Made by a program: the position numbers and the translations under genes. Shown one piece after another: positions 8,487-47,640 of a stretch of 64,000 bases of DNA. The first letter of the stretch is position 1. Each line of letters starts with the position of its first letter. The DNA comes from Vibrio cholerae (GTDB lineage: Bacteria > Actinomycetota > Actinomycetes > Actinomycetales > Micrococcaceae). A model generated the notes under the pieces. It was given only the letters and a program-made list of their open reading frames with translations, did not search any database and had not been told where the DNA came from. Location: positions 1 to 64,000 of the forward strand of contig WNZI01000003.1 in NCBI GenBank assembly GCA_009728235.1. The letters are read 5' to 3'.

Positions 8487-9125
8487 ATGACGGATGATGC
8501 TCAGCTCGAAAAGGTGGCTGATCTGTTCAAGGCGCTCAGCACGGCGTCCCGGCTGAGGATCCTGGTCTCCCTCGCGAGCGGCGAGGATTCCGTCGGTTCC
8601 TTGGTGAGAGCCACAGGATTGTCCCAACCCTTGGTATCGCAGCACCTGCGGGTGTTACGGAGCATGAATCTGGTCACCGTCAGCAGGTCGGGTCGGGAGG
8701 CCTTCTATTCGTTGACCGATGAGCACGTCGCCCACGTCATCGATGATGCCATCGCCCACACGGTCGAAGCATCACCCACCACCGATCACACCCACCCATT
8801 CCGAGCACGAGCCAAGGAGAAGAACATGACGACCGAGATCAAGGCCGAGCACACCCTCGACGACCACAGGCACGGCGCCGCCGACTGCACCCACGAGACT
8901 GTCCAGCACGGCGACCACACGGACTACCTCCATGACGGCCACCGTCACGCAGAGCATGACGGGCACTACGACGAGCACGATGAGCCCGCCGAGCACAGCC
9001 TCTCCGATCACACCCACGGCGCAGCGGACTGCACCCACGAAGGCGTCGAGCACGGCGACCACACGGACTACGTCCACGACGGCCACCGCCACGCCGCGCA
9101 CGGGGACCATTACGACGAACACTAG
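8487..9125 (+). CDS. ArsR/SmtB-type regulator fused to a duplicated His-rich metal-binding tail
   Basis: 212 residues. Residues about 1-95 are a winged-helix ArsR/SmtB repressor ('DLFKALSTASRLRILVSLASG', 'GLSQPLVSQHLRVL', 'REAFYSL'), ending in a His-containing helix. Residues about 114-212 hold two tandem copies of a roughly 45-residue His/Asp/Glu-rich unit ('HGAADCTHE', 'HGDHTDY', 'HDGHRHA', 'DEH'). An ATG at 8826, with AAGGAGAAG before it, lies in frame at the junction, so the tail may also be made alone as a 99-residue metal-binding protein like those encoded free-standing in zinc loci of relatives. It is upstream of, and convergent with, aztA. Zinc is the likely metal by context. Confidence 0.85.
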   Translation: MTDDAQLEKVADLFKALSTASRLRILVSLASGEDSVGSLVRATGLSQPLVSQHLRVLRSMNLVTVSRSGREAFYSLTDEHVAHVIDDAIAHTVEASPTTDHTHPFRARAKEKNMTTEIKAEHTLDDHRHGAADCTHETVQHGDHTDYLHDGHRHAEHDGHYDEHDEPAEHSLSDHTHGAADCTHEGVEHGDHTDYVHDGHRHAAHGDHYDEH

Positions 9126-9147
9126 AACGCTTCCCGAAGCGCTCCAC

Positions 9148-9184
9148 GGAACAGCACCGGTCCCGACGGGACCGGTGCTGTTCC
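9148..9184. terminator. Bidirectional hairpin between the ArsR-type gene and aztA
   Basis: A perfect 17-bp stem (9148-9164 and 9168-9184) with a 3-nt loop lies between two convergent genes, 22 bp after one stop and 45 bp after the other. It can serve both strands. Confidence 0.85.
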
Positions 9185-9229
9185 GTTCGACCTGGTGCGA
9201 AGCGGCGACCGGTGGACGGCGCTTGGGCC

Positions 9230-9949
9230 TCAGCGGTGATGCACGCGCCCTGGACCCGCGGAGACCACCCGACCGGCCTCCAGCCGGATGACGTGATCGG
9301 CGGCGGCGAGGGCCGCGTCGTCGTGCGATACACAGACCACGGTCGCCCCGCGGTCGCGCTCGGCGAGCAGGACGTCGGCGAACACTGCACGGGTGGCAGC
9401 GTCGAGACCGGTGGTGGGCTCGTCGAGCAGCACGACGTCGGCACGCTGTGCCAGACCCTGGGCCAAGAAGGCGCGCTGTCGCTGCCCCCCCGACAGGGCA
9501 GTGAGAGGGCGGTCCCGGAATCCGTCGAGCCCGACCAGACCGATGCACTCGTCGACGACGTCACGATCCTCGGCGCCCAGGCGTCGAAGAAGGCCCGTAC
9601 TGGACCACCGCCCCATCGTGACCACATCCCGCACCGTGAGCGGCATGCGGTCGGAGACCTCGCTCCGCTGGACGACGAGAGCCCTGCGCACCCGCGGCGG
9701 AACCGACACCTTCCCCCGACGCGGGGCGAGCAGGCCGGCGAGCACCGCAAGCGCCGTGGACTTGCCCGACCCGTTGGCTCCCGCGATGACCGTCACGGCA
9801 CCCGAGCGGATCACGAGGGAGGTACCACAGAGGGCATCGACGCCGTCGTGGTCGAACCAGACGTCGGTGAGCGACAGCTCATAGGACCCCCGGGCAGCCG
9901 GAACCGGCCGGGAAAGCGTGGAGCTGGAAGGAGATCGAGCCGAAGACAT
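9230..9949 (-). CDS. aztA: Zinc ABC transporter ATP-binding protein AztA
   Basis: 239 residues. Walker A 'GANGSGKST', signature 'LSGGQRQRA', Walker B 'VVLLDEP', H-loop 'VSHDD'. It energises the permease AztB, which is encoded divergently 53 bp away; this split layout sets it apart from a usual aztABCD operon. A Zur-like box lies between the two starts. The first 20 residues are Ser/Pro-rich and not conserved-looking, so the true start could be slightly downstream. Confidence 0.88.
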   Translation of the reverse strand: MSSARSPSSSTLSRPVPAARGSYELSLTDVWFDHDGVDALCGTSLVIRSGAVTVIAGANGSGKSTALAVLAGLLAPRRGKVSVPPRVRRALVVQRSEVSDRMPLTVRDVVTMGRWSSTGLLRRLGAEDRDVVDECIGLVGLDGFRDRPLTALSGGQRQRAFLAQGLAQRADVVLLDEPTTGLDAATRAVFADVLLAERDRGATVVCVSHDDAALAAADHVIRLEAGRVVSAGPGRVHHR

Positions 9950-22955: not shown

Positions 22956-23207
22956 TCACGGTTCGGATCGGAAGCCGGTGAGTTTGTGTGAACCGTCGCA
23001 GTAGGGCTTTATGGCCGAGGCACCGCAGCGGCAGAGCGCCACCGTCCTGCGCGTTCGGGGCAGTTCCTGGCCGTCGGACCCGAGCAGTTCGAAATCACCG
23101 CGGATCAGCAGCGGGCCGTCGGTGCATGCGACCACGCTGACCGGCGGATCTGAAGCACTTCTCAGACCTCTGTCGGCGGGTTCGGACGGCGTCGCATCGG
23201 AGGTCAC
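22956..23207 (-). CDS. CDGSH iron-sulfur domain protein
   Basis: 83 residues; the GTG start overlaps the preceding stop by 4 bp. The single CDGSH motif is complete: Cys-x-Cys in 'LCRCGAS', then 'KPYCDGSHKLTGF', giving the 3-Cys/1-His ligands of a labile 2Fe-2S cluster. The N-terminal 25 residues are disordered-looking. Coupling to the oxidase gene suggests electron supply to, or redox sensing for, that enzyme. Confidence 0.9.
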   Translation of the reverse strand: MTSDATPSEPADRGLRSASDPPVSVVACTDGPLLIRGDFELLGSDGQELPRTRRTVALCRCGASAIKPYCDGSHKLTGFRSEP

Positions 23208-24241
23208 CGCGACATCGCTTCCGCCGGAAGCAGCGATGACGCACCCGCGTCCCAGGCCGCCATGATGTGGGCGGTCATGAGGGCGTCGACGGCCAGCCCT
23301 GCAGCGGCACCGAACAGGACGTCCTCCAGCAGCCGTGGATCGGACTCGACAAGCCCTCCGGCCATGTCCCGCCCGGCGATCTGCTCATGGACCGCGTCCG
23401 CCTCGACGTGCTCGTCGAAGTACTCGGTGACGTCCTCGCCGTACCCGAGCCGCCTGAAACCCCGCGCGTACAGGCCGTTCGGCCGCGACGAGGTCATTTC
23501 GTAAGCGGCCAGGTGACCGATGATCGCCCCCCGGAGCCGCCGGTTGAGTCCGAAGAGCGACATCAGGTTGTTGGCTGCCAGCGTGATAGCCGGTACCGCG
23601 TCGAGGTACGCCCCATAGGAGTCCTCCATGCCGATCCCCCGCATGGTGCGAGCGAAGAGGGCCGAGTGCATGCGCGCCGGCAGGCCGTTCCCGTACTCGT
23701 CCGCCTGGATCTCCACGAGAGCCGCCTTCGTCCGACCGGTGAGGCGCGGGATGGCCCAGGTGTGGGGGTCGGCCTCCTTCAGCTGGAAGACCGACTTGTG
23801 GATGACGAACTCGCGAAGGTGGTCCTTCGTCGCCGTCTTGGCGATGAACCGGGACATGCTCGGGCCGCCGGAGTCTTCGCCCGTCATCCGGAAGAGTTCC
23901 TCGCAGACGGCGGCGCTCGTCGGTGCCGGCAGGTCACCGAGGACGACATCCTTCCGGAGCCGGCGCTCGAAGGCCGCCTCTATCAGGTGCCGCACGCCGA
24001 TCAGTGCCGGATTCCACTCCCAGTCGTCACCCGCACCGTCGATGCCGCTGTAGTGCAGCTCGTAGAGGCAGAAGAGGGCAAGCTGGAGGTCGTCGTCGTG
24101 AAGGATGTCCGGGGTTTCCGCGACAGCCGCTTCGACGAGTACCTCGAGACGTGCGAGTGGACCCTGCTGGGACTCGACAGTGCCGGCAATGACGGCAAGG
24201 AGCAGTGAGCTGATCTCTCCGCGCGGGGAGGGCTGCTTCAT
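23204..24241 (-). CDS. Iron-containing redox enzyme, haem-oxygenase-like fold
   Basis: 345 residues from the ATG at 24241, which follows GAGG; ATG at 24259 lacks a ribosome site. The protein is helical with carboxylate/His motifs expected of the haem-oxygenase-like diiron group: 'CLYELHYSG', 'EIQADEYGNG', 'EYFDEHVEADAVHEQ'. Such proteins perform O2-dependent chemistry on small substrates. It is translationally coupled to the CDGSH protein. A TAAG-type element (24291-24302) lies in its promoter region. Substrate unknown. Confidence 0.8.
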   Translation of the reverse strand: MKQPSPRGEISSLLLAVIAGTVESQQGPLARLEVLVEAAVAETPDILHDDDLQLALFCLYELHYSGIDGAGDDWEWNPALIGVRHLIEAAFERRLRKDVVLGDLPAPTSAAVCEELFRMTGEDSGGPSMSRFIAKTATKDHLREFVIHKSVFQLKEADPHTWAIPRLTGRTKAALVEIQADEYGNGLPARMHSALFARTMRGIGMEDSYGAYLDAVPAITLAANNLMSLFGLNRRLRGAIIGHLAAYEMTSSRPNGLYARGFRRLGYGEDVTEYFDEHVEADAVHEQIAGRDMAGGLVESDPRLLEDVLFGAAAGLAVDALMTAHIMAAWDAGASSLLPAEAMSR

Positions 24242-24290
24242 CTCGAACCTCGTTCTCATCGGTGCGGCCGCGGGGCCCGGGCATCGACAC

Positions 24291-24302
24291 TAAGCCTACT
24301 TT
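24291..24302. promoter_or_regulatory. TAAG-N4-CTTA-type element, iron redox enzyme promoter
   Basis: TAAGCCTACTTT, 50 bp before the ATG at 24241. It matches 7 of the 8 fixed positions of the element shared by five intergenic regions of the 24-31 kb cluster. Confidence 0.55.
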
Positions 24303-24343
24303 GCTTCTGTTCATCGTGGAGAGGCTCCGGCCTGCACGCACGA

Positions 24344-24387
24344 CGACGCCGGACCGGCGGCACGTGAGTGCCGCCGGTCCGGCGTCG
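24344..24387 (-). terminator. Terminator of the Mn-catalase/DUF4383 unit
   Basis: A perfect 20-bp stem (24344-24363 with 24368-24387) and 4-nt loop, about 70 bp after the stop of the DUF4383 gene and before the promoter of the next unit. Confidence 0.85.
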
Positions 24388-24455
24388 ATTCTTCAGCTCG
24401 GCGGCATGGGTGCCACCGGTCGCCATCCGCCGCCCGCGCGGCGATGACCCTACGA

Positions 24456-24917
24456 TCAGGCGCGGTTGGCTTTCGCGCGGTTGTCGCGGGTCAGCAGCAG
24501 TGCGAGTGCGACCATCCCGACAGCGAGGAAGAAGTGCAGCCAGTTGTCCGCACTGTTCAGCGGGACGAAGTTGGCGGACGAGTCCTGACCGATCACGAGC
24601 CCGTAGATCCACAGGACGGCGTAGATGATGCCGCCGACCAGCAGGTAGTTCCGCGCTCCCGACACCGTCCTCGCCATCGCCAGGCCGGCGACACCGAACA
24701 GGAGGTGCACGATGTTGTGGAGGATCGACACCTGGAAGATCCCGAGCAGCATGGCCTCGGACTGGTGTCCGGCGAACTCCATGGTGTCGTAGTTCGACGT
24801 GATCCCCGGGATGAACCCGAGGATGCCGACCAACAGGAACACGATGCCCACTGCCTGGGCGGCCCGCTGGACCTTGGTGCGCCCGTTGTCCACGGTGCGA
24901 TTGTTCGTACTTGTCAT
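24456..24917 (-). CDS. DUF4383 membrane protein
   Basis: 153 residues, ATG with GGAGAT upstream. Four membrane segments, with the family pattern 'LLGIFQVSILHNIVHLLFGVAGLAMAR' and 'NYLLVGGIIYAVLWIYG', 'NWLHFFLAVGMVAL'. DUF4383 proteins are frequent next to stress and catalase genes in actinobacteria; function unknown. Only 42 bp separate it from the Mn-catalase gene, so they probably form one operon. Confidence 0.88.
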   Translation of the reverse strand: MTSTNNRTVDNGRTKVQRAAQAVGIVFLLVGILGFIPGITSNYDTMEFAGHQSEAMLLGIFQVSILHNIVHLLFGVAGLAMARTVSGARNYLLVGGIIYAVLWIYGLVIGQDSSANFVPLNSADNWLHFFLAVGMVALALLLTRDNRAKANRA

Positions 24918-24959
24918 GACGATCTCCTGTTCCTCGATAGGTGCGAGTAGTGCTGGTGG

Positions 24960-25841
24960 TTATTCGCGGTTGAGCTTGTCCTGCACGGTGCCGGCCATCT
25001 TCTCGACGGTGTTCGGGATCTCCGTCGTCCCGTAGAACCGGGAGTCGGGGTGGGTGGGCGGCGGCATGGGCGCACTGGTCGTGGGCCCCTCGTGGTACGT
25101 GAACTCACCCTTGCCGTCCGGCGTCGGACCCGAAGCCCAGCTGCCCTCGGACGCGGTCTTGCCGTCCGAGAAGTTGAGGTACTGGTAGGACACCTCACGG
25201 GCTTCCTTCTTGATGGGGAAGTTGCTCGGTACGGGCATTTCCTCCATCTTGGACTCCTGGAGTTCCCTGGCGGCGGCGGTCCACTGGTTCTGGTGCATGG
25301 TGTCCCTCGCGAGCAGGAAGGAGAGCATGTCCCGGACGCCGTGGTCGTCGGTCATGTGGTAGAGACGGGCGACCTGGAGACGGCCCTGCATCTCCGCATT
25401 GGCGTTGGCCGTGAAGTCCGCCAGCAGGTTCCCGCTGGCGGTGATGTAGCTGCCCTGCCAGGGGTTGCCGTTGCTGTCGGCCGCACGTGCTCCGGCTCCG
25501 GCGACGATGGCCTGCTGCATGTCCGTGCCACCGATGACGGCCGCCACTGCGGGATCGGCCTGGATCGAGTCCTCGGTGATGCCGAGAGGAGCCTTTTCGA
25601 GCAGCTGGGCGATCATGGTCGCGAGCATCTCGACGTGACCCATCTCCTCCGCGCCGATCCCGAACAGCAGGTCACGGTACTTGCCCGGGATGTGCGCGTT
25701 CCATGCCTGGAAGCTGTACTGCAGCGCCACGGTGATCTCGCCGTACTGGCCACCGAGCACCTCCTGCAGCTTGCGTGCATAGATCGCGTCCGGCTTGTCG
25801 GGCGTGGACTTGTACTGAAGCTCTTGCTTGTGGAAAAACAC
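24960..25841 (-). CDS. Manganese catalase (KatN-like)
   Basis: 293 residues from a GTG. Ferritin-like four-helix fold with dimanganese ligands visible in 'GGQYGEITVALQYSFQ', 'GIGAEEMGHVEMLATMI', 'NANAEMQGRLQVARLYHM' and 'LLARDTMHQNQW'. It disproportionates hydrogen peroxide without haem. The C-terminal tail is Pro/Gly-rich, as usual. It leads the DUF4383 gene, and a TAAG-type palindrome (25960-25971) lies in the divergent promoter region shared with the 26125 operon. Confidence 0.94.
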   Translation of the reverse strand: MFFHKQELQYKSTPDKPDAIYARKLQEVLGGQYGEITVALQYSFQAWNAHIPGKYRDLLFGIGAEEMGHVEMLATMIAQLLEKAPLGITEDSIQADPAVAAVIGGTDMQQAIVAGAGARAADSNGNPWQGSYITASGNLLADFTANANAEMQGRLQVARLYHMTDDHGVRDMLSFLLARDTMHQNQWTAAARELQESKMEEMPVPSNFPIKKEAREVSYQYLNFSDGKTASEGSWASGPTPDGKGEFTYHEGPTTSAPMPPPTHPDSRFYGTTEIPNTVEKMAGTVQDKLNRE

Positions 25842-25959
25842 TGGTGTTTACCTCCCCACCTCGGGCCCTCCCCGGTCTGGACCCGCTCCTTCTGGAAGCG
25901 GCCATGGGAGGTCCTCTTGATTCGACGCTAAAGGCTCGCCTAGGATTTTTGGAAGATAC

Positions 25960-25971
25960 TAAGTGTACTTA
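25960..25971. promoter_or_regulatory. TAAG-N4-CTTA element 1 of the katN/26125 divergent region
   Basis: TAAGTGTACTTA lies 119 bp before the Mn-catalase start. The surrounding 283-bp divergent region is AT-rich compared with the flanks. Confidence 0.65.
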
Positions 25972-26016
25972 TTTTGAACTTGCGGGATTCGGAGAAAGAG
26001 CTTGCACTGCGCAAGG

Positions 26017-26028
26017 TAAGCATGCTTA
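26017..26028. promoter_or_regulatory. TAAG-N4-CTTA element 2 of the katN/26125 divergent region
   Basis: TAAGCATGCTTA is a perfect 12-bp palindrome, 97 bp before the start of the 26125 operon. Confidence 0.65.
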
Positions 26029-26124
26029 GCTTCAGTGATAAGTCCAGCACGAGATGCCGGACCATCGCATCGGAAACACGATGGAGCGTCCGCTCTCACG
26101 GCACGATCAACGTTAGGAAGAACC

Positions 26125-26988
26125 ATGACTACGCAGAATTGGCCGCAGGATCCCCTGGTTCCCTCCACCACCGGGAACGAGTCGTCGACGTCGGACCTGG
26201 GCGCGCACGAACTCGGCACCACGGAGTTCTCCGGCGGCACGTCGGGCTCCGGTGACTCGAAGACCTCCGCAGCCAAGGACCAGGCGAAGCAGGTCGGGCA
26301 GGACGGCAAGGAAGCAGCCAAGAACGTGGCTGGTACCGCTGCCTCCGAGGCGAAGAACGTAGCCGGCACCGCAGCCTCCGAGGCGAAGAGTGTTGCAGCC
26401 GAAGCCGGATCACAGGCGAAGAACCTGCTGGGCACCGTGACCTCCGAGGTCAAGAGCCAGGCCGGCTCCCAGCAGCAGAAGATCACCGAGGGCATCCGGA
26501 GCATCTCCGACGAACTGAAGTCGATGGCCGAGAAGTCGGACAACTCGATGGTCTCGAGCGTTGTCCAGCAGGCGTCGCAGCGCACGGACTCGGCCGCCTC
26601 ATGGCTCGAAGGTCGCGACGCCGCCGACATCCTCGAAGACGTGAAGGCTTTCGCACGCCGCAAGCCCGGAGCGTTCCTCGCCATCGCGGCGGGATCAGGG
26701 CTGCTCGTCGGTCGCCTGACACGAGGACTCACGGGTAACCGGGATTCGGGTAACTCCTCCACCGCGAACTCGACGGACACCTCGTCCACCGGGACCTACG
26801 CCGGGTACACGGAAGCCGACACGGACCTCTACAGCGGAACCCCCGCGACAGCCGGATTCGGCGAGACCCGTGGCCAGCACGTCGCCGACTCGGGCCTCGC
26901 GTTCGTTGACCCTGCCGACGACTACCCCACCATCCCACCGGGCACCCCTCCCGTCGGCACCCTGCCGAATGACGGGAGCCTGCGCTGA
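26125..26988 (+). CDS. Hypothetical protein with LEA-like repeats and one membrane segment
   Basis: 287 residues from the ATG at 26125 (AGGAAG upstream). About 45-115 hold imperfect 11- to 12-residue repeats of the type 'KNVAGTAASEA', Ala/Lys/Glu-rich and amphipathic as in LEA proteins. A glycine-rich hydrophobic stretch near 190 ('PGAFLAIAAGSGLLVGRLTRG') resembles the membrane part of YtxH/ElaB-like proteins. The last 80 residues are Thr/Ser/Gly-rich and disordered. First of a three-gene operon whose next start overlaps its stop. A stress role is inferred from repeats and neighbours. Confidence 0.75.
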   Translation: MTTQNWPQDPLVPSTTGNESSTSDLGAHELGTTEFSGGTSGSGDSKTSAAKDQAKQVGQDGKEAAKNVAGTAASEAKNVAGTAASEAKSVAAEAGSQAKNLLGTVTSEVKSQAGSQQQKITEGIRSISDELKSMAEKSDNSMVSSVVQQASQRTDSAASWLEGRDAADILEDVKAFARRKPGAFLAIAAGSGLLVGRLTRGLTGNRDSGNSSTANSTDTSSTGTYAGYTEADTDLYSGTPATAGFGETRGQHVADSGLAFVDPADDYPTIPPGTPPVGTLPNDGSLR

Positions 26989-27440
26989 TGAGTGAGGCAT
27001 ACACGGGCGGCGCCCACCAGGCTGCCGCACCCCTTCCGTCGGAGGCGGAGCAACGCTCCGCCAACGCTTCGGTGGGCGAGCTCCTCGGGGAGGTGACGAA
27101 GGATCTCTCGAAGCTGATGCGCCAGGAGGTCGCCCTGGCCAAGGCCGAGGCCACCGAGTCGGCGAAGAACGCAGGCAAGGGTGCCGGCATGTTCGCCGGC
27201 GCCGCCGTCGGAGGCCACTTCGTCCTGCTCTTCCTGTCCCTGGCCCTGATGTGGGGCCTCGGAGCACTCATGCCTCTCGGCTGGGCTGCTCTCATCGTGG
27301 CCGTGCTGTGGGGGATCATCGCCGCCGTACTGGCGCTGCAGGGCAAGAAGGAAATGAAGAAGGTCAAGGGCCTCCCCCAGACCGCGGAGACCGTCAAAGA
27401 GATCCCCCCGACACTGAAACCAGGTGAAGAGACACGATGA
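26988..27440 (+). CDS. Actinobacterial holin-X / phage holin family protein
   Basis: 150 residues; TGATG overlap with the previous stop. An N-terminal amphipathic helix ('LGEVTKDLSKLMRQEVALAKAEA') is followed by two membrane helices (about 65-90 and 97-120), the layout of the DUF1469/holin-X family. Despite the name these are chromosomal envelope proteins with no phage context here. It overlaps the DUF3618 gene by 4 bp; the pair is a standard actinobacterial module. Confidence 0.88.
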   Translation: MSEAYTGGAHQAAAPLPSEAEQRSANASVGELLGEVTKDLSKLMRQEVALAKAEATESAKNAGKGAGMFAGAAVGGHFVLLFLSLALMWGLGALMPLGWAALIVAVLWGIIAAVLALQGKKEMKKVKGLPQTAETVKEIPPTLKPGEETR

Positions 27441-28153
27441 GCCAGACACCCGATGAGATCCGTGCAGATATCGAACGTACCCGTCAGGAACTGGGTACCG
27501 ACGTCGATGCCGTCGCGGACAAAGTGAATCCCGCCAACATCGCACACCGGCAGACCGAGAAGGTCAAGCACAGCTTCAGCAATGTGAAGGAGAGCGTCAT
27601 GGGCAAGGCCGAGGACGTGAAGGACGCCGTGGTCGGTAAGGCGGAGAACGTCAAGGACACGGTGCAGGACAAGGCCGGACAGGCCAAGGGCAAGGCCGGC
27701 AACGGACTCGGCAACGCCCAGTCCGCCACCGGCACCGCCAAGGACAAGGTGCATCACGCCGGCCAGGCCGTGCAGGGTGCGCCCGGGCAGCTCAGTGACA
27801 AGGCAGCCGGGAATCCCCTCGCGGCCGGGCTCATCGCCTTCGGCGTAGGGCTCCTGGCAGCATCGCTGATTCCTGCCAGCCAGAAGGAGCAGCAGGCCGC
27901 GTCGCAGCTGAAGGAGCAGGTCGCTCCGTTGAAGGAGAAGCTGACGGACGCCGCCAAGCAGGTCGCCGAGGAGGTCAGGGAACCCGCGCAGGACGCGGTG
28001 CAGTCCCTGAAGGAATCGGCAGCCGACTCGGTGCAGACCGTGAAGGACGAGGGCCAGCACGCTGCAGGCGAGGTCAAGAGCGAGGGCCAGCAGGCCGCGA
28101 GCGACGTCAAGGGCAGCGCACAGGACGCGAAGTCCAGCGTGCAGCAGCGCTGA
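27437..28153 (+). CDS. DUF3618 protein with amphipathic repeats
   Basis: 238 residues. DUF3618 at the N-terminus ('TPDEIRADIERTRQELGTDVDAVADKVNP'), then Lys/Ala/Val repeats ('KEDVKDAV' type), a glycine-rich membrane helix ('LAAGLIAFGVGLLAASLIP', about 130-150) and a long Glu/Lys/Gln/Ala tail with LEA-like periodicity. It is probably inner-membrane anchored with extended cytoplasmic helices. Last gene of the operon, followed by a strong terminator. Confidence 0.85.
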   Translation: MSQTPDEIRADIERTRQELGTDVDAVADKVNPANIAHRQTEKVKHSFSNVKESVMGKAEDVKDAVVGKAENVKDTVQDKAGQAKGKAGNGLGNAQSATGTAKDKVHHAGQAVQGAPGQLSDKAAGNPLAAGLIAFGVGLLAASLIPASQKEQQAASQLKEQVAPLKEKLTDAAKQVAEEVREPAQDAVQSLKESAADSVQTVKDEGQHAAGEVKSEGQQAASDVKGSAQDAKSSVQQR

Positions 28154-28167
28154 TACTCCACGCTCCA

Positions 28168-28207
28168 ACGACAGAGGCCACCGGGAACACCCGGTGGCCT
28201 CTGTCGT
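28168..28207 (+). terminator. Terminator after the DUF3618 gene
   Basis: An 18-bp perfect stem (28168-28185 with 28190-28207) and 4-nt loop, 14 bp after the stop. It can also act on the opposite strand behind the isochorismatase gene. Confidence 0.88.
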
Positions 28208-28360
28208 CCGTCCTGCGGATCGATCGCACGCTCTGATTCCGGTTCATGAACGCCACGCCGGACACCTGTCAGGGCCGCTGGAGCTTCCACACGACCAGCA
28301 GGTCCCGGTTCGCAGCGCCTTCGAGCGCGCGCCCGGCCCGGAGCGTCCCCTATTGGAGGG

Positions 28361-28948
28361 TCACTTCAGCAGGGCCAGCGCCTCCGCGAGTCCGATGATG
28401 GGCTGCCGGTATTCGACCGAGAGGATCTCGAGCATCGCAGCGGCATACTCCTCGTTCGTGCTGCCGATCGCATCCGAAACGTAGCTGACCCTGAAATCGT
28501 GGGCGAAAGCATCTGCTCCGGTATGTGCCACGCAGTTGTGCGTCGCAACCCCCGCAAGGATCAGCCGCTCCACTCCCAGGCCGCGGAGCCGCGCCGCGAG
28601 GTCCGTTCCGAAGAAGGCGCTGTCCCGGGTCTTCGTCACCGTCTCGAGCCCTTCGACGGCCAGTCCCTCGACGAAGTCGGCCTGACGCGTCCCTTCGAAG
28701 ATGAATCCCTGGTCGTCGTCCCGCATCGAGAGGGTCCACGTGGAGCCGTCCTGCCGGTGCTCGGTGCGGGCTACCAGGATGTGTGCGCCGCTGGCCCGAG
28801 CCGTGCCGATGAGGCTGTTGCAGGCCGTGACGAGCGGTTGCTGCACCGCGGCGAGGACCTCGTCCTCGAAGAAGGCGTTCTGCATGTCGATGACCAGGAG
28901 CGCGGTCGTCCCCTGCTGATCATCCGGGGCTGCGTCAGCGCGAGGCAT
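28361..28948 (-). CDS. Isochorismatase-like cysteine hydrolase
   Basis: 195 residues. Catalytic triad of the family: Asp in 'ALLVIDMQNAFF', Lys in 'TVTKTRDSAFFGTDL', Cys in 'LAGVATHNCVAHTGADA'. Members cleave amides such as nicotinamide or N-carbamoyl compounds, or isochorismate. Substrate unknown. Its start lies inside the end of the preceding small gene (14-bp overlap), so both are co-translated. Confidence 0.9.
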   Translation of the reverse strand: MPRADAAPDDQQGTTALLVIDMQNAFFEDEVLAAVQQPLVTACNSLIGTARASGAHILVARTEHRQDGSTWTLSMRDDDQGFIFEGTRQADFVEGLAVEGLETVTKTRDSAFFGTDLAARLRGLGVERLILAGVATHNCVAHTGADAFAHDFRVSYVSDAIGSTNEEYAAAMLEILSVEYRQPIIGLAEALALLK

Positions 28949-29312
28949 TTGGCTCCCGCCCGGCCCCAGCAGGAACCTCGACGGACAGAGAGCTGCCCTG
29001 GCGGCCGGGATTGCTCGCCGGGGACGCCTCGGGCGCGATCAGGAACGGCTCGTGCTGCGGTGCCGGACCGAAGACAGACATCGGGCCGGGATCGTCCGAA
29101 CCAGCGGGTGGGGACTCGGCGAGACGCCACACGTCGAGCTCGGGCAGATCGGCGGCGAGGGCGATCTGCGCGTGCGAGAAACCCTCGGCCAGCGCAGAGC
29201 GTATCGCTACCGCGCAGGCCATCACCAGCCGGTCCCGCTCGAACTCGGCGTCCTCGAGATTGCCCGCTGCGATCATGACCTCGTTGATGGAGGGAGGCCG
29301 AGCTTCTGGCAT
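28935..29312 (-). CDS. Small protein with possible helix-turn-helix
   Basis: 125 residues from the ATG at 29312, preceded by AAGGGC; the longer frame from 29402 looks spurious. Residues 8-70 are helical ('NEVMIAAGNLEDAEFERDRLVMACAVAIRSALAEGFSHAQIALAADLPELDVWRLAE', a sigma-70-region-4-like helix-turn-helix in outline); the rest is Pro/Ser-rich and disordered. Could be a regulator of the coupled hydrolase; family not recognised. (The quoted stretch is described by position: key part 'GFSHAQIALAADLPELDVW'.). Confidence 0.6.
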   Translation of the reverse strand: MPEARPPSINEVMIAAGNLEDAEFERDRLVMACAVAIRSALAEGFSHAQIALAADLPELDVWRLAESPPAGSDDPGPMSVFGPAPQHEPFLIAPEASPASNPGRQGSSLSVEVPAGAGREPNASR

Positions 29313-29482
29313 GTTGCCCTTTCGGGAGATTCTATGGACAGGTCGGTGACCGTCCAGCCGGCACAGACCGGGAACCGCCGTTGGACGACACCGACCGCGC
29401 ACTCATCCTATGAAAGCGCGATCGCCTGCTCCCATCACGCTGCCTTGGCGGGTTGTCCTCGTCAAGGTGGCAGATCTGATGC

Positions 29483-29494
29483 TAAGCAGGCTTT
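29483..29494. promoter_or_regulatory. TAAG-N4-CTTA-type element 1 before the PRC-barrel gene
   Basis: TAAGCAGGCTTT, one mismatch at the last position, centred 17 bp... 23 bp upstream of a second copy at 29506-29517, giving two helical turns between the sites. Confidence 0.5.
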
Positions 29495-29505
29495 CCATCA
29501 GGTCC

Positions 29506-29517
29506 TAAGTGTGCTTA
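29506..29517. promoter_or_regulatory. TAAG-N4-CTTA element 2 before the PRC-barrel gene
   Basis: TAAGTGTGCTTA, 99 bp before the ATG at 29617. Spacing to the start is close to that of the 26017 element (96 bp before 26125). Confidence 0.65.
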
Positions 29518-29616
29518 CTCTAGAGACCGGTGGTTATCCGGAGCCTCGGTTCCGGTGATGCCTACAGCCGAAGATTCCAAACCCCTGGCATTGAGATTAC
29601 TCAGAAGGAGAAGGAA

Positions 29617-30498
29617 ATGATCACTCAGCAGAACATCGACACCCTGCTCGGCAACTCCGGTAACGTCCTCGGATCCGACGGAGAGAAGATCGGCTCCATC
29701 GGCCAGGTCTACCTCGACGACCAGACCGGCGAGCCCAGCTGGGTCACCGCCAAGACGGGCCTGTTCGGTACGTCCGAGTCCTTCGTTCCCCTTCAGGGCG
29801 CCGACCTCGAAGGTCATGATGTCCGCGTTCCCTACACGAAGCACCAGGTGAAGGACGCTCCCCGCATCGACTCCGATGGCAACCTCAGCCCTGAGGAGGA
29901 GGACCGCCTCTACCGCCACTACGAGATCGGCGGCGGAACCAGCAGCTACACCGACACCACAGACACCGTCGGCCACGGTGACCGCGACGTCGACATCGAC
30001 ACCACCTCGGGCACCCACGCGGGCGTCACCGGGACCGGTACCGATGCCTTCGCCGGCACCACCTCGGGAACGGATCGCGGCACGGTCGGACACGACACGT
30101 CCGGTCCGACCACCGACGATGCCATGACCCGCTCTGAGGAGCAGCTCCACGTCGGCACGGAACGCCGCGAGGCAGGCCGCGCCCGTCTCCGCAAGTACGT
30201 GGTCACCGAGAACGTCACCCAGACCGTTCCCGTGAGCCACGAGGAAGTCCGCCTCGAGCGCGAGCCCATCACCGACGCCAACCGTGGCGACGCCTACGAC
30301 GGTCCCGCCATCAGCGAGGAGGAGCACGAGGTGGTCCTTCACGAGGAGCGCCCCGTCGTCGAGAAGGAAGCCGTTCCCGTGGAGCGCGTCCGCCTCGACA
30401 AGGAGACAGTCACCTCCAACGAGACGGTCAGCAGCGATGTCCGCAAGGAAGAGATCGAGATCGACGGCGCGGATGACACGCGTCGCGGCAACCTCTAA
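29617..30498 (+). CDS. PRC-barrel and DUF2382 stress protein
   Basis: 293 residues; the ATG at 29617 follows AAGGAGAAGG. N-terminal PRC-barrel (about 1-100, 'GNVLGSDGEKIGSIGQVYLDD', 'FVPLQGADLEGHDVRVPY'), a Thr/Gly/Asp-rich linker (about 105-175), and a C-terminal DUF2382/YsnF-like domain ('RLRKYVVTENVTQTVPVSHEEV', 'VEKEAVPVERVRLDKETV'). In other bacteria this architecture is associated with general stress response. Soluble, acidic. Followed by a perfect terminator. Confidence 0.92.
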   Translation: MITQQNIDTLLGNSGNVLGSDGEKIGSIGQVYLDDQTGEPSWVTAKTGLFGTSESFVPLQGADLEGHDVRVPYTKHQVKDAPRIDSDGNLSPEEEDRLYRHYEIGGGTSSYTDTTDTVGHGDRDVDIDTTSGTHAGVTGTGTDAFAGTTSGTDRGTVGHDTSGPTTDDAMTRSEEQLHVGTERREAGRARLRKYVVTENVTQTVPVSHEEVRLEREPITDANRGDAYDGPAISEEEHEVVLHEERPVVEKEAVPVERVRLDKETVTSNETVSSDVRKEEIEIDGADDTRRGNL

Positions 30499-30506
30499 GT
30501 AGCACC

Positions 30507-30549
30507 GACGACGAAGGGCTCGGAGCGATGCTCCGAGCCCTTCGTCGTC
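30507..30549 (+). terminator. Terminator after the PRC-barrel gene
   Basis: A perfect 20-bp stem (30507-30526 with 30530-30549) and 3-nt loop, 8 bp after the stop. Confidence 0.9.
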
Positions 30550-30600
30550 ATTCATGCGCAACAGGCGACGTCCAATCTTGCCCGATGTGCAGAATGATAA

Positions 30601-30612
30601 TAAGCCTACTGT
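30601..30612. promoter_or_regulatory. TAAG-type half-matching element before marR
   Basis: TAAGCCTACTGT shares its first ten bases with the 24291 element. It lies 82-93 bp before the MarR start at 30694, in an AT-rich patch. Suggests autoregulation. Confidence 0.45.
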
Positions 30613-30693
30613 CTATTTCGGGCAATGTTGACTACAGTAATCAGTAGGAACAAGCAGTTCACCGCGTACATCCGAGGGGAAGGACACGCCATC

Positions 30694-31116
30694 GTGCCGG
30701 AGTTGAACGATTGGTCGACCAGCCGCCTGCTAACGACCGCGGCCCGCATCGTCGAGCATTCATGGAATGAGAAGCTCCTCAGCATCGGCATCACCCATGC
30801 CGGCCTGACCACGCTGGGCGTCCTGGAACGCGAAGGCACCCTGACGGGCGTCCGGCTGGCACAACTCGTGCACGTCCAGGCGCAGACCGTCGGACGGACG
30901 CTCGACCGCCTCGAGAAGCGCGGCCTCGTGACGAGGCTCCGCAACACCGCCGACCGCCGTAGCCAGCGCATCACCATCACCTCCGCCGGCCTGAAGGCTC
31001 TCGAACGTGCGAAGAACATCGAGCACGAACTGATGGCGGAGGACGGCCTGGCTTCCCAGGACCTCAGGGACCGACTCACGACGGTCATCAATGAACTCGG
31101 ACCGAAGAAGGACTAG
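30694..31116 (+). CDS. MarR family regulator, candidate controller of the stress cluster
   Basis: 140 residues from the GTG at 30694, aligned with the start of its paralogue at 47197; an ATG at 30625 gives 23 more residues. Winged helix: 'GLTTLGVLEREGTLTGVRLAQLV', 'QAQTVGRTLDRLEKRGLVTRLRN', wing 'DRRSQRITITSAG'. MarR proteins bind palindromes as dimers and respond to phenolics or oxidants; no Cys is present, so ligand rather than thiol sensing is likely. Its stop overlaps the dnaB stop on the other strand by 4 bp. Confidence 0.9.
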   Translation: MPELNDWSTSRLLTTAARIVEHSWNEKLLSIGITHAGLTTLGVLEREGTLTGVRLAQLVHVQAQTVGRTLDRLEKRGLVTRLRNTADRRSQRITITSAGLKALERAKNIEHELMAEDGLASQDLRDRLTTVINELGPKKD

Positions 31117-47196: not shown

Positions 47197-47640
47197 ATGC
47201 CTGATTTGCAAGAGTGGTCAACCAGCCGCCTGCTCACCACTGCCGCTCGTCTCGTCGACCACGCGTGGAACGAGAGACTGCTCGACATCGGGATCACCCA
47301 TGCCGGTTACACCACCCTCGGGGTCCTCTCCCGGCAGGGCACCATGACGGGCGCCAAGCTTGCCCTGGCCGTGCACGTCCAGGCGCAGACCATCGGCAAG
47401 ACCATCGAGAAGCTCGAGCGCCAGGGTTTCATCTCCCGGATCCGCGACAGCGTCGATCGCCGGAGCCAGCGCATCACCATCACCGCCTCGGGCGTCGACG
47501 CCCTCGCCAAGGCGGAGGACATCGAGCGCACCCTCATGGTCGGGGAAGGGCTCGAGTCGTTCGAGTTGCGGAGCCTGCTGCGCGGCATCGTCGGCGAACT
47601 CGCTCCCCAGCGGCAGAAGCCGGCAGCCGCTGCCGTCTGA
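47197..47640 (+). CDS. MarR family regulator, second copy
   Basis: 147 residues, ATG with GGAGGA upstream. Strongly similar along its length to the regulator at 30694 ('WSTSRLLTTAAR', 'GITHAGYTTLGVLSRQGTMTG', 'VQAQTIGKTIEKLERQGF', 'DRRSQRITITASG'). Its promoter region carries no TAAG-type element, so the two paralogues probably have separate targets. No Cys. Followed by a hairpin terminator. Confidence 0.9.
   Translation: MPDLQEWSTSRLLTTAARLVDHAWNERLLDIGITHAGYTTLGVLSRQGTMTGAKLALAVHVQAQTIGKTIEKLERQGFISRIRDSVDRRSQRITITASGVDALAKAEDIERTLMVGEGLESFELRSLLRGIVGELAPQRQKPAAAAV

Follow-up and report, generated by a model that had tools for sequence, protein, structure and literature searches.

A conserved TAAG-N4-CTTA element and a MarR clade as its probable reader at general-stress genes of Arthrobacter and related genera

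In the window analysed here, which covers the first 64 kb of one contig (C3) in a genome of 3.75 Mb, a 12-bp palindrome of the form TAAG-N4-CTTA recurs before stress-related genes and before a gene for a MarR-family regulator starting at position 30694 (the 30694 MarR). Comparison of this genome with its relatives establishes the motif, its conservation and its links to MarR genes and stress genes. On this comparative basis we propose, with a probability of roughly 0.8, that a clade of MarR proteins, acting as global stress regulators and most likely as repressors, uses the symmetric form TAAG-YNNR-CTTA as its operator; this clade is very probably the reader of the motif. Genomes, genera, contigs and loci are denoted below by G, g, C and L; the window's own genome is G000, of genus g1.

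Conservation and genome-wide occurrence of the element

The preliminary description of the window had reported six shared sites. All six exist, but only three are exact copies of TAAGNNNNCTTA, two others having one mismatch and the last two:
24291..24302: operator-like site with one mismatch, about 40 bp before the haem-oxygenase-like/CDGSH genes
25960..25971: exact site TAAGTGTACTTA in the promoter region of the Mn-catalase/DUF4383 genes (minus strand)
26017..26028: exact site TAAGCATGCTTA before the LEA-like/holin-X/DUF3618 genes
29483..29494: distal site of a tandem pair, one mismatch, in the PRC/DUF2382 promoter region
29506..29517: exact proximal site TAAGTGTGCTTA of that pair, 23 bp from the distal site
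30601..30612: site TAAGCCTACTGT, two mismatches, a candidate autoregulatory operator 93 bp before the MarR start

With up to one mismatch allowed, the window holds five matches, all within the stretch 24291-30612, against 1.38 +- 1.16 in shuffled versions, of which 1 in 100 reach five. Taken alone, this count is modest evidence against chance, and the case for the motif rests beyond it, on conservation and on the genome-wide set. An isochorismatase gene and a possible small gene (28361-29402) lie divergent to the DUF2382 gene, and the sites at 29483 and 29506 may serve them too.

The closest loci found are those of A. ruber, A. bussei, A. cheniae and A. agilis. Across 19 aligned relatives, all related Arthrobacter loci, the sites stay in place while their flanks drift. 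The LEA-operon site is exact in 18 of the 19 and missing in L019; the two DUF2382 sites are kept 23 bp apart, with the proximal one exact, in 16, none being exact in L019, L032 and L036. A site before the Mn-catalase gene is present in 14 relatives, ending in CTTA in 13 of them and in CTTG in L034, and its centre varies (TAAGTCTA, TAAGGCTA, TAAGCGTA, TAAGGGTA, TAAGCTCA); L028, L029, L032 and L036 lack this site, and no Mn-catalase was found there. Wherever both exist, the Mn-catalase and LEA sites are spaced 55-57 bp start to start. At the haem-oxygenase-like gene AAGTANGCT is found in all 13 relatives with an intact gene start, with CTTA in 11 and the outer T in none of the 13 (a 14th locus, L021, is matched by the 3' part of the gene only). 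The MarR-promoter site is kept in 16 of the 19 as TAAGCNNGCTGT, TAAGYAWGCTTC or TAAGCAGGCTTG, and in L019 it is the only site. L033 and L035 have no exact site, the MarR-promoter site of L035 carrying one mismatch. In L019 (positions 8983-9789, A. agilis UMCV2) the DUF2382 gene is partly masked, and the other stress-island genes gave no match in the locus.

The own genome contains 21 exact TAAG-N4-CTTA sites, most of them near gene starts, against seven matches to the reversed pattern, and 13 symmetric TAAGYNNRCTTA sites against three for the corresponding reversed control. According to a crude caller of open reading frames (ORFs), 17 of the 21 lie outside any ORF and four near the ends of ORFs, where the local coding signal is weak; six of the seven reversed matches are inside ORFs. 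Coding DNA with such a GC content seldom contains TAA or TTA, which makes the reversed pattern an imperfect control. The six window sites thus belong to a genome-wide set, several members of which lie by homologous genes in two other genera, and the compact regulon envisaged earlier has to be given up together with any island-only model. The idea of a shared operator-like element at stress genes fares better: its sites are conserved upstream of orthologues in the aligned relatives, where a lack of conservation would have refuted the proposal by the preliminary description's own criterion, and many adjoin general-stress genes.

MarR genes and other neighbours of the element

Homologues of the 30694 MarR (E <= 1e-20) occur in 59 of 149 genomes of the family. 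MarR-less genomes are a better baseline than the reversed pattern, and in them TAAGYNNRCTTA averages 0.58 sites per genome, against 6.6 in those with MarR; the motif is rare there, whereas its being common at random would, as the preliminary description had said beforehand, have refuted the proposal. The reversed control shows no difference (3.5 per genome with MarR, 3.7 without). At least five TAAGYNNRCTTA sites are present in 35 of the 59 MarR-bearing genomes against 2 of the 90 others (Fisher p 6e-16; control p 0.9), and in the two MarR-less exceptions, G076 and G128, the sites do not exceed the genomes' own controls. The association persists between the genus means of 11 genera in which all genomes have MarR and 19 in which none has (p 3e-4, two mixed genera left out), and no MarR-free genus averages more than 1.72 sites. 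MarR looks necessary, but not sufficient, for expansion of the motif. Genomes outside the family show no clear expansion; an odd case is G316 (family f4), a 0.9 Mb genome with seven TAAGYNNRCTTA sites against no control match and without a listed MarR match, where base composition is perhaps responsible.

The element is also found before the MarR genes themselves. When a matrix built without MarR-promoter sites is applied (threshold 9 bits, up to 130 bp upstream), 26 of the 89 MarR genes of the family, spread over 9 of 13 genera, prove to have a site, compared with 21 among 1102 control windows; the resulting p of 5e-19 is too small, since the rows are related, and seven of the 21 control matches lie in L043-L048, loci that hold DUF2382 sites. 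In other families of the order, 12 MarR homologues were recovered (198 genomes searched, family members included), and 11 of them, from seven genera, have a TAAGC/TCAGC-NN-GCTTA/GCTGA-like palindrome before the gene, where shuffles lead one to expect 0.06. G276 has only one exact TAAGYNNRCTTA in its whole genome, and that one precedes the aligned start of MarR by about 130 bp. The earlier nomination of a MarR as candidate controller is supported.

The 30694 protein matches PF01047 with 44.1 bits (cut-off 24.6) and PF12802 with 39.9 (cut-off 27). Its own-genome paralogues are 47197 (60% identical; PF01047, 42.4 bits), C15:1199 (58%), which is the core copy, and C35:4428 (44%). The core copy matches solved chains of the MarR family, best Rv0880 (E 1e-6). 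Of 95 MarR places listed, 89 entered the tree, alignment and upstream scans, the six weakest being left out, and L132 repeats L071. In the tree the core MarR is present in most MarR-bearing genera and separate from the 30694 and 47197 types, which among the genomes searched are confined to six of the eight g1 genomes. The paralogues have in common VQAQT-x-G-[KR] in what we take, from general knowledge of the MarR family, to be the recognition helix, and one shared operator is therefore likely. No cysteine is present in the 30694 protein, in residues 1-137 of C15:1199 or in the aligned part of 47197; this speaks against OhrR-type thiol sensing, which relies on a reactive cysteine, in these copies, and a ligand is likelier than thiol oxidation as the signal. 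The widely conserved EHxWN and THAG motifs of the MarR alignment may line a ligand pocket.

In 16 of 17 inspected core-MarR loci and in L160, spanning 12 genera, the regulator gene lies divergent to a peroxiredoxin-like gene, for which an AhpC-TSA domain was confirmed in L160. In L160 (G000:C15:97-1609) a SigB/F-like sigma gene follows the MarR gene, an order found in six g1 genomes (the own one, G079, G116, G130, G031 and G057). 'SigB/F-like' denotes similarity only, as no match in the 149 genomes reached the curated cut-off of the model; sigma-70 regions 2-4 were confirmed for the genes of L160 and L163. Three g10 loci have an exact TAAG site just upstream of such a gene (L163:1810, L164:2273, L165:2762), and in L163 and L165 that site is common to a divergent epimerase-like gene; an own-genome epimerase (L003) has a site as well. 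MarR genes further adjoin DUF2382 in g1 and in g10 (L143:2657-3001), and DUF3618 (L131) and CsbD (L123) in g29; in L130 one lies within 1 kb of a site-bearing Transgly_assoc gene.

Genes of the window were assigned to families by Pfam match, which confirms the isochorismatase as well, and the 30694 start was picked from an alignment of the relatives' MarR promoters:
22956..23207, minus: CDGSH iron-sulphur protein (PF09360)
23204..24259, minus: Haem_oxygenas_2 iron-containing redox enzyme (PF14518)
24456..24917, minus: DUF4383 protein (PF14325)
24960..25841, minus: manganese catalase (PF05067)
26125..26988, plus: protein labelled LEA in the preliminary description; no Pfam match, homologues in relatives
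26988..27440, plus: Actinobacterial Holin-X family protein (PF07332)
27437..28153, plus: DUF3618 protein (PF12277) with sub-threshold LEA_4 similarity
29617..30498, plus: PRC-barrel/DUF2382 protein (PF05239, PF09557; scanned as the longer ORF 29530-30498)
30694..31116, plus: MarR-family regulator, a duplicate in part of genus g1 (PF01047, PF12802; scanned as ORF 30625-31116)
47197..47640, plus: second MarR paralogue, 60% identical to 30694 (PF01047)

Elsewhere in the own genome the sites have the following neighbours:
L001: DUF456
L003: BrkB, epimerase
L008: ferritin-like (Dps-like) gene, polyketide-cyclase-like gene
L011: RlmH-like and IspD-like genes
L012: DUF2231-Rieske
L013: short-chain dehydrogenase
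L015: FAD oxidoreductase, photolyase-related gene
L039: baeRF2 gene
L040: DUF1508

Judged by site neighbours, a regulon of this kind is also seen in genomes from two further genera. Sites in G009 (g10) and G080 (g32) adjoin DUF2382, a similar FAD oxidoreductase, DUF4383, catalase, CsbD, a pyridoxamine-oxidase-like gene, DUF1206, a ferritin-like with a cyclase-like gene, Usp with a short-chain dehydrogenase, and Transgly_assoc, but also several genes outside these categories. The sites fetched were 13 of 18 in G009, 6 of 11 in G080, 1 of 5 in G137 and all 13 in each of G116 and G130. Protein clustering covered 19 of 20 own loci (L012 gave no adjacent gene), and 11 of the 19 share a site-adjacent homologue with at least one of G116, G130, G009 and G080, or 10 without the doubtful L011, which joined the short-chain-dehydrogenase cluster via a generic domain.

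Promoter geometry and alternative explanations

We infer from these patterns physical binding, reading by a dimer, repression, a direction of spread and sharing of the operator by paralogues, as follows. The regulators would be the core MarR, divergent from a peroxiredoxin gene, together with lineage-specific paralogues such as 30694, and a MarR dimer would read two TAAGY half-sites. From the regulators' own promoters the operator would have spread to general-stress genes in Arthrobacter and several related genera, where the MarR proteins, unless released by a stress signal, would block RNA polymerase near the -10 box or the start point.

The sign of control can be approached through 41 oriented promoter windows, with divergent sites counted once per direction. 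Sites without a clear downstream gene or constituting duplicates were omitted, namely L002, L009, L010, L011, L014, L038, L042, L133, L136, L139, L141, L146 and L152, the second site of L039 and the distal site 29483. TTGNNN-N16-19-TANNNT matches in 12 of the 41, where 2.3 are expected and none of 500 local shuffles that left the site in place reaches 12. The -10 starts from 12 bp before to 10 bp after the site start in ten of the 12 matches. In five its first bases are the site's last TA, in five it begins 5-12 bp before the site, which would then cover the start point, and in two it lies 43-51 bp downstream. At 26017, for instance, the end of the site overlaps the -10 of a TTGCAC-N19-TAGCTT match. 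Among windows with a recognisable promoter, then, most have the site over the -10 or over the start point, both of them places where repressors act, and this suggests repression. The MarR proteins could instead be activators or counter-silencers, as SlyA can be, SlyA activating by antagonising H-NS according to the available part of PMC5797941. In our reading of the alignment, the 30694-promoter site lies near -38 of the putative start, a position that an activator could also use. We regard this as improbable, though not negligible, because the site overlaps or adjoins the -10 in the ten matches above.

Several observations weigh against MarR-mediated repression through the element. A consensus promoter is missing from 29 of the 41 windows, and the antisense strands of the same windows give nine matches, partly since promoters are divergent. 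As many as 24 of the 59 MarR-bearing genomes have fewer than five sites, and the genera g6, g16 and g27 (MarR in 7/7, 3/3 and 3/7 genomes) lack genome-wide expansion; the looser TAAGNNNNCTTA, counted in 30 genomes, shows no enrichment in these three genera and a blurred signal in g29. G028 has 12 symmetric sites, yet 18 looser ones against 22 for the control, and G117 has eight sites against ten. Some site neighbours, such as the RlmH-like and IspD-like genes, are not stress genes, and eight of the 19 own-genome loci share no neighbour with G116, G130, G009 or G080. The MarR-promoter site is lost in L028, L029 and L032, where read-through of MarR from DUF2382 was considered and found unsupported: a strong hairpin intervenes in L028 (9895-10000; -48.5 kcal/mol, z -4.8), and hence shared transcription does not obviously replace the lost site. 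Finally, the 130-bp scan finds no site at 63 of the 89 MarR genes of the family, including the core copy C15:1199 and 47197 (the latter has no good site within 400 bp upstream), and the co-occurrence of motif and MarR is phylogenetically structured, so that another factor with the same distribution is conceivable.

That the operator belongs to such a factor, a different transcription regulator sharing the phyletic range of the MarR clade, would accord with the correlative nature of the MarR-motif link and with the many MarR genes lacking a nearby site. We think it rather unlikely, given that MarR genes of other families have sites in front of them even though the motif is not expanded in those genomes, and that the 12-bp geometry resembles the SlyA consensus TTAGCAAGCTAA as presented in the available part of PMC5797941. 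Still less probable is the earlier suggestion that a single regulator, the 30694 protein, owns the island and alone reads the motif. Its gene is indeed part of the island and has a conserved site of its own, but three paralogues (47197, C15:1199 and C35:4428) accompany it, the putative recognition helix is common to paralogues, and genera without a 30694 orthologue (g5, g8, g10, g19 and g32) reach similar means, 8.4-12.5 sites against 10.4 in g1; in genera lacking 30694 it is the older core MarR that goes with the motif. The motif is very unlikely to be part of a promoter for the SigB/F-like stress sigma factor, for although the targets are of the sigma-B kind, such a gene stands next to the core MarR in g1 and three g10 genomes have a TAAG site 110-175 bp before the matched part of theirs, the element is palindromic, its distance from -10-like boxes varies, and it does not track the sigma factor: in all six g7 genomes the best SigB/F-like matches are at E ~1e-60, without MarR or TAAGYNNRCTTA, and five g32 genomes (G032, G058, G100, G117 and G131) have no match better than E ~5e-37, yet 8-13 sites.

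One may tentatively go further, to a general stress response that sigma-B-type factors run in other bacteria but that, in Micrococcaceae-type genera, would be gated by a network of MarR paralogues with one common operator and perhaps different signals. Their inputs would converge on the same promoters; MarR, its genes lying among its targets and here and there next to a SigB/F-like sigma gene, would stand above that sigma factor; and an old local autoregulator would have been made global by operator spread. We consider this larger scheme possible rather than likely.

Significance and relation to known systems

Arthrobacter and related bacteria are noted for their ability to survive drying, radiation and starvation, and we found no switch for their general-stress genes described in the open-licence literature. 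The 12-bp operator, its target list and a candidate regulator family make control of these genes directly testable. The system may also offer a natural case of a local autoregulator turning global, as the genera look like different stages of this process, from sites at a MarR gene without expansion in g27 to a genome-wide set in g1, g10 and g32.

The sigma-B general stress response of Bacillus and Streptomyces targets catalase, Dps, CsbD, Usp and short-chain dehydrogenases. It resembles the system described here in the kinds of target genes and differs in relying on a sigma factor with partner switching, against a one-component regulator here. Among open-licence publications we found no account of a TAAG-N4-CTTA operator or regulon, and the available part of a study of Arthrobacter sp. 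Helios under polyethylene glycol (PMC9608346) held nothing decisive as expression support.

Judging from the accessible portions of the reports on them, the nearest actinobacterial parallels come from Corynebacterium glutamicum. CrtR is an autoregulated MarR-type repressor whose site overlaps promoter elements, features that the regulator proposed here would share; it differs in its small local regulon of carotenoid genes and in its TTAA motif (PMC5401885, PMC6739363), and on account of that motif a CrtR-type system was rejected. AesR is likewise an actinobacterial MarR protein with paired inverted repeats at promoter elements, but its half-sites are of the ACTATG/CATAGT type and it serves local operons (PMC13413800). 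A further likeness is to SlyA/MarR-type operators, which, as far as the available part of the source goes, combine a 12-bp palindrome, a MarR-family reader, a site before the regulator's own gene and several target operons (PMC5797941). The SlyA half-site is TTAGC, in contrast to TAAGY here, SlyA belongs to another phylum, and the Escherichia coli protein antagonises H-NS (PMC5797941), whereas the targets here are actinobacterial general-stress genes. The comparison suggests that, within a known family and through an operator and regulon apparently undescribed, a MarR clade has been promoted to wide control of general-stress genes.

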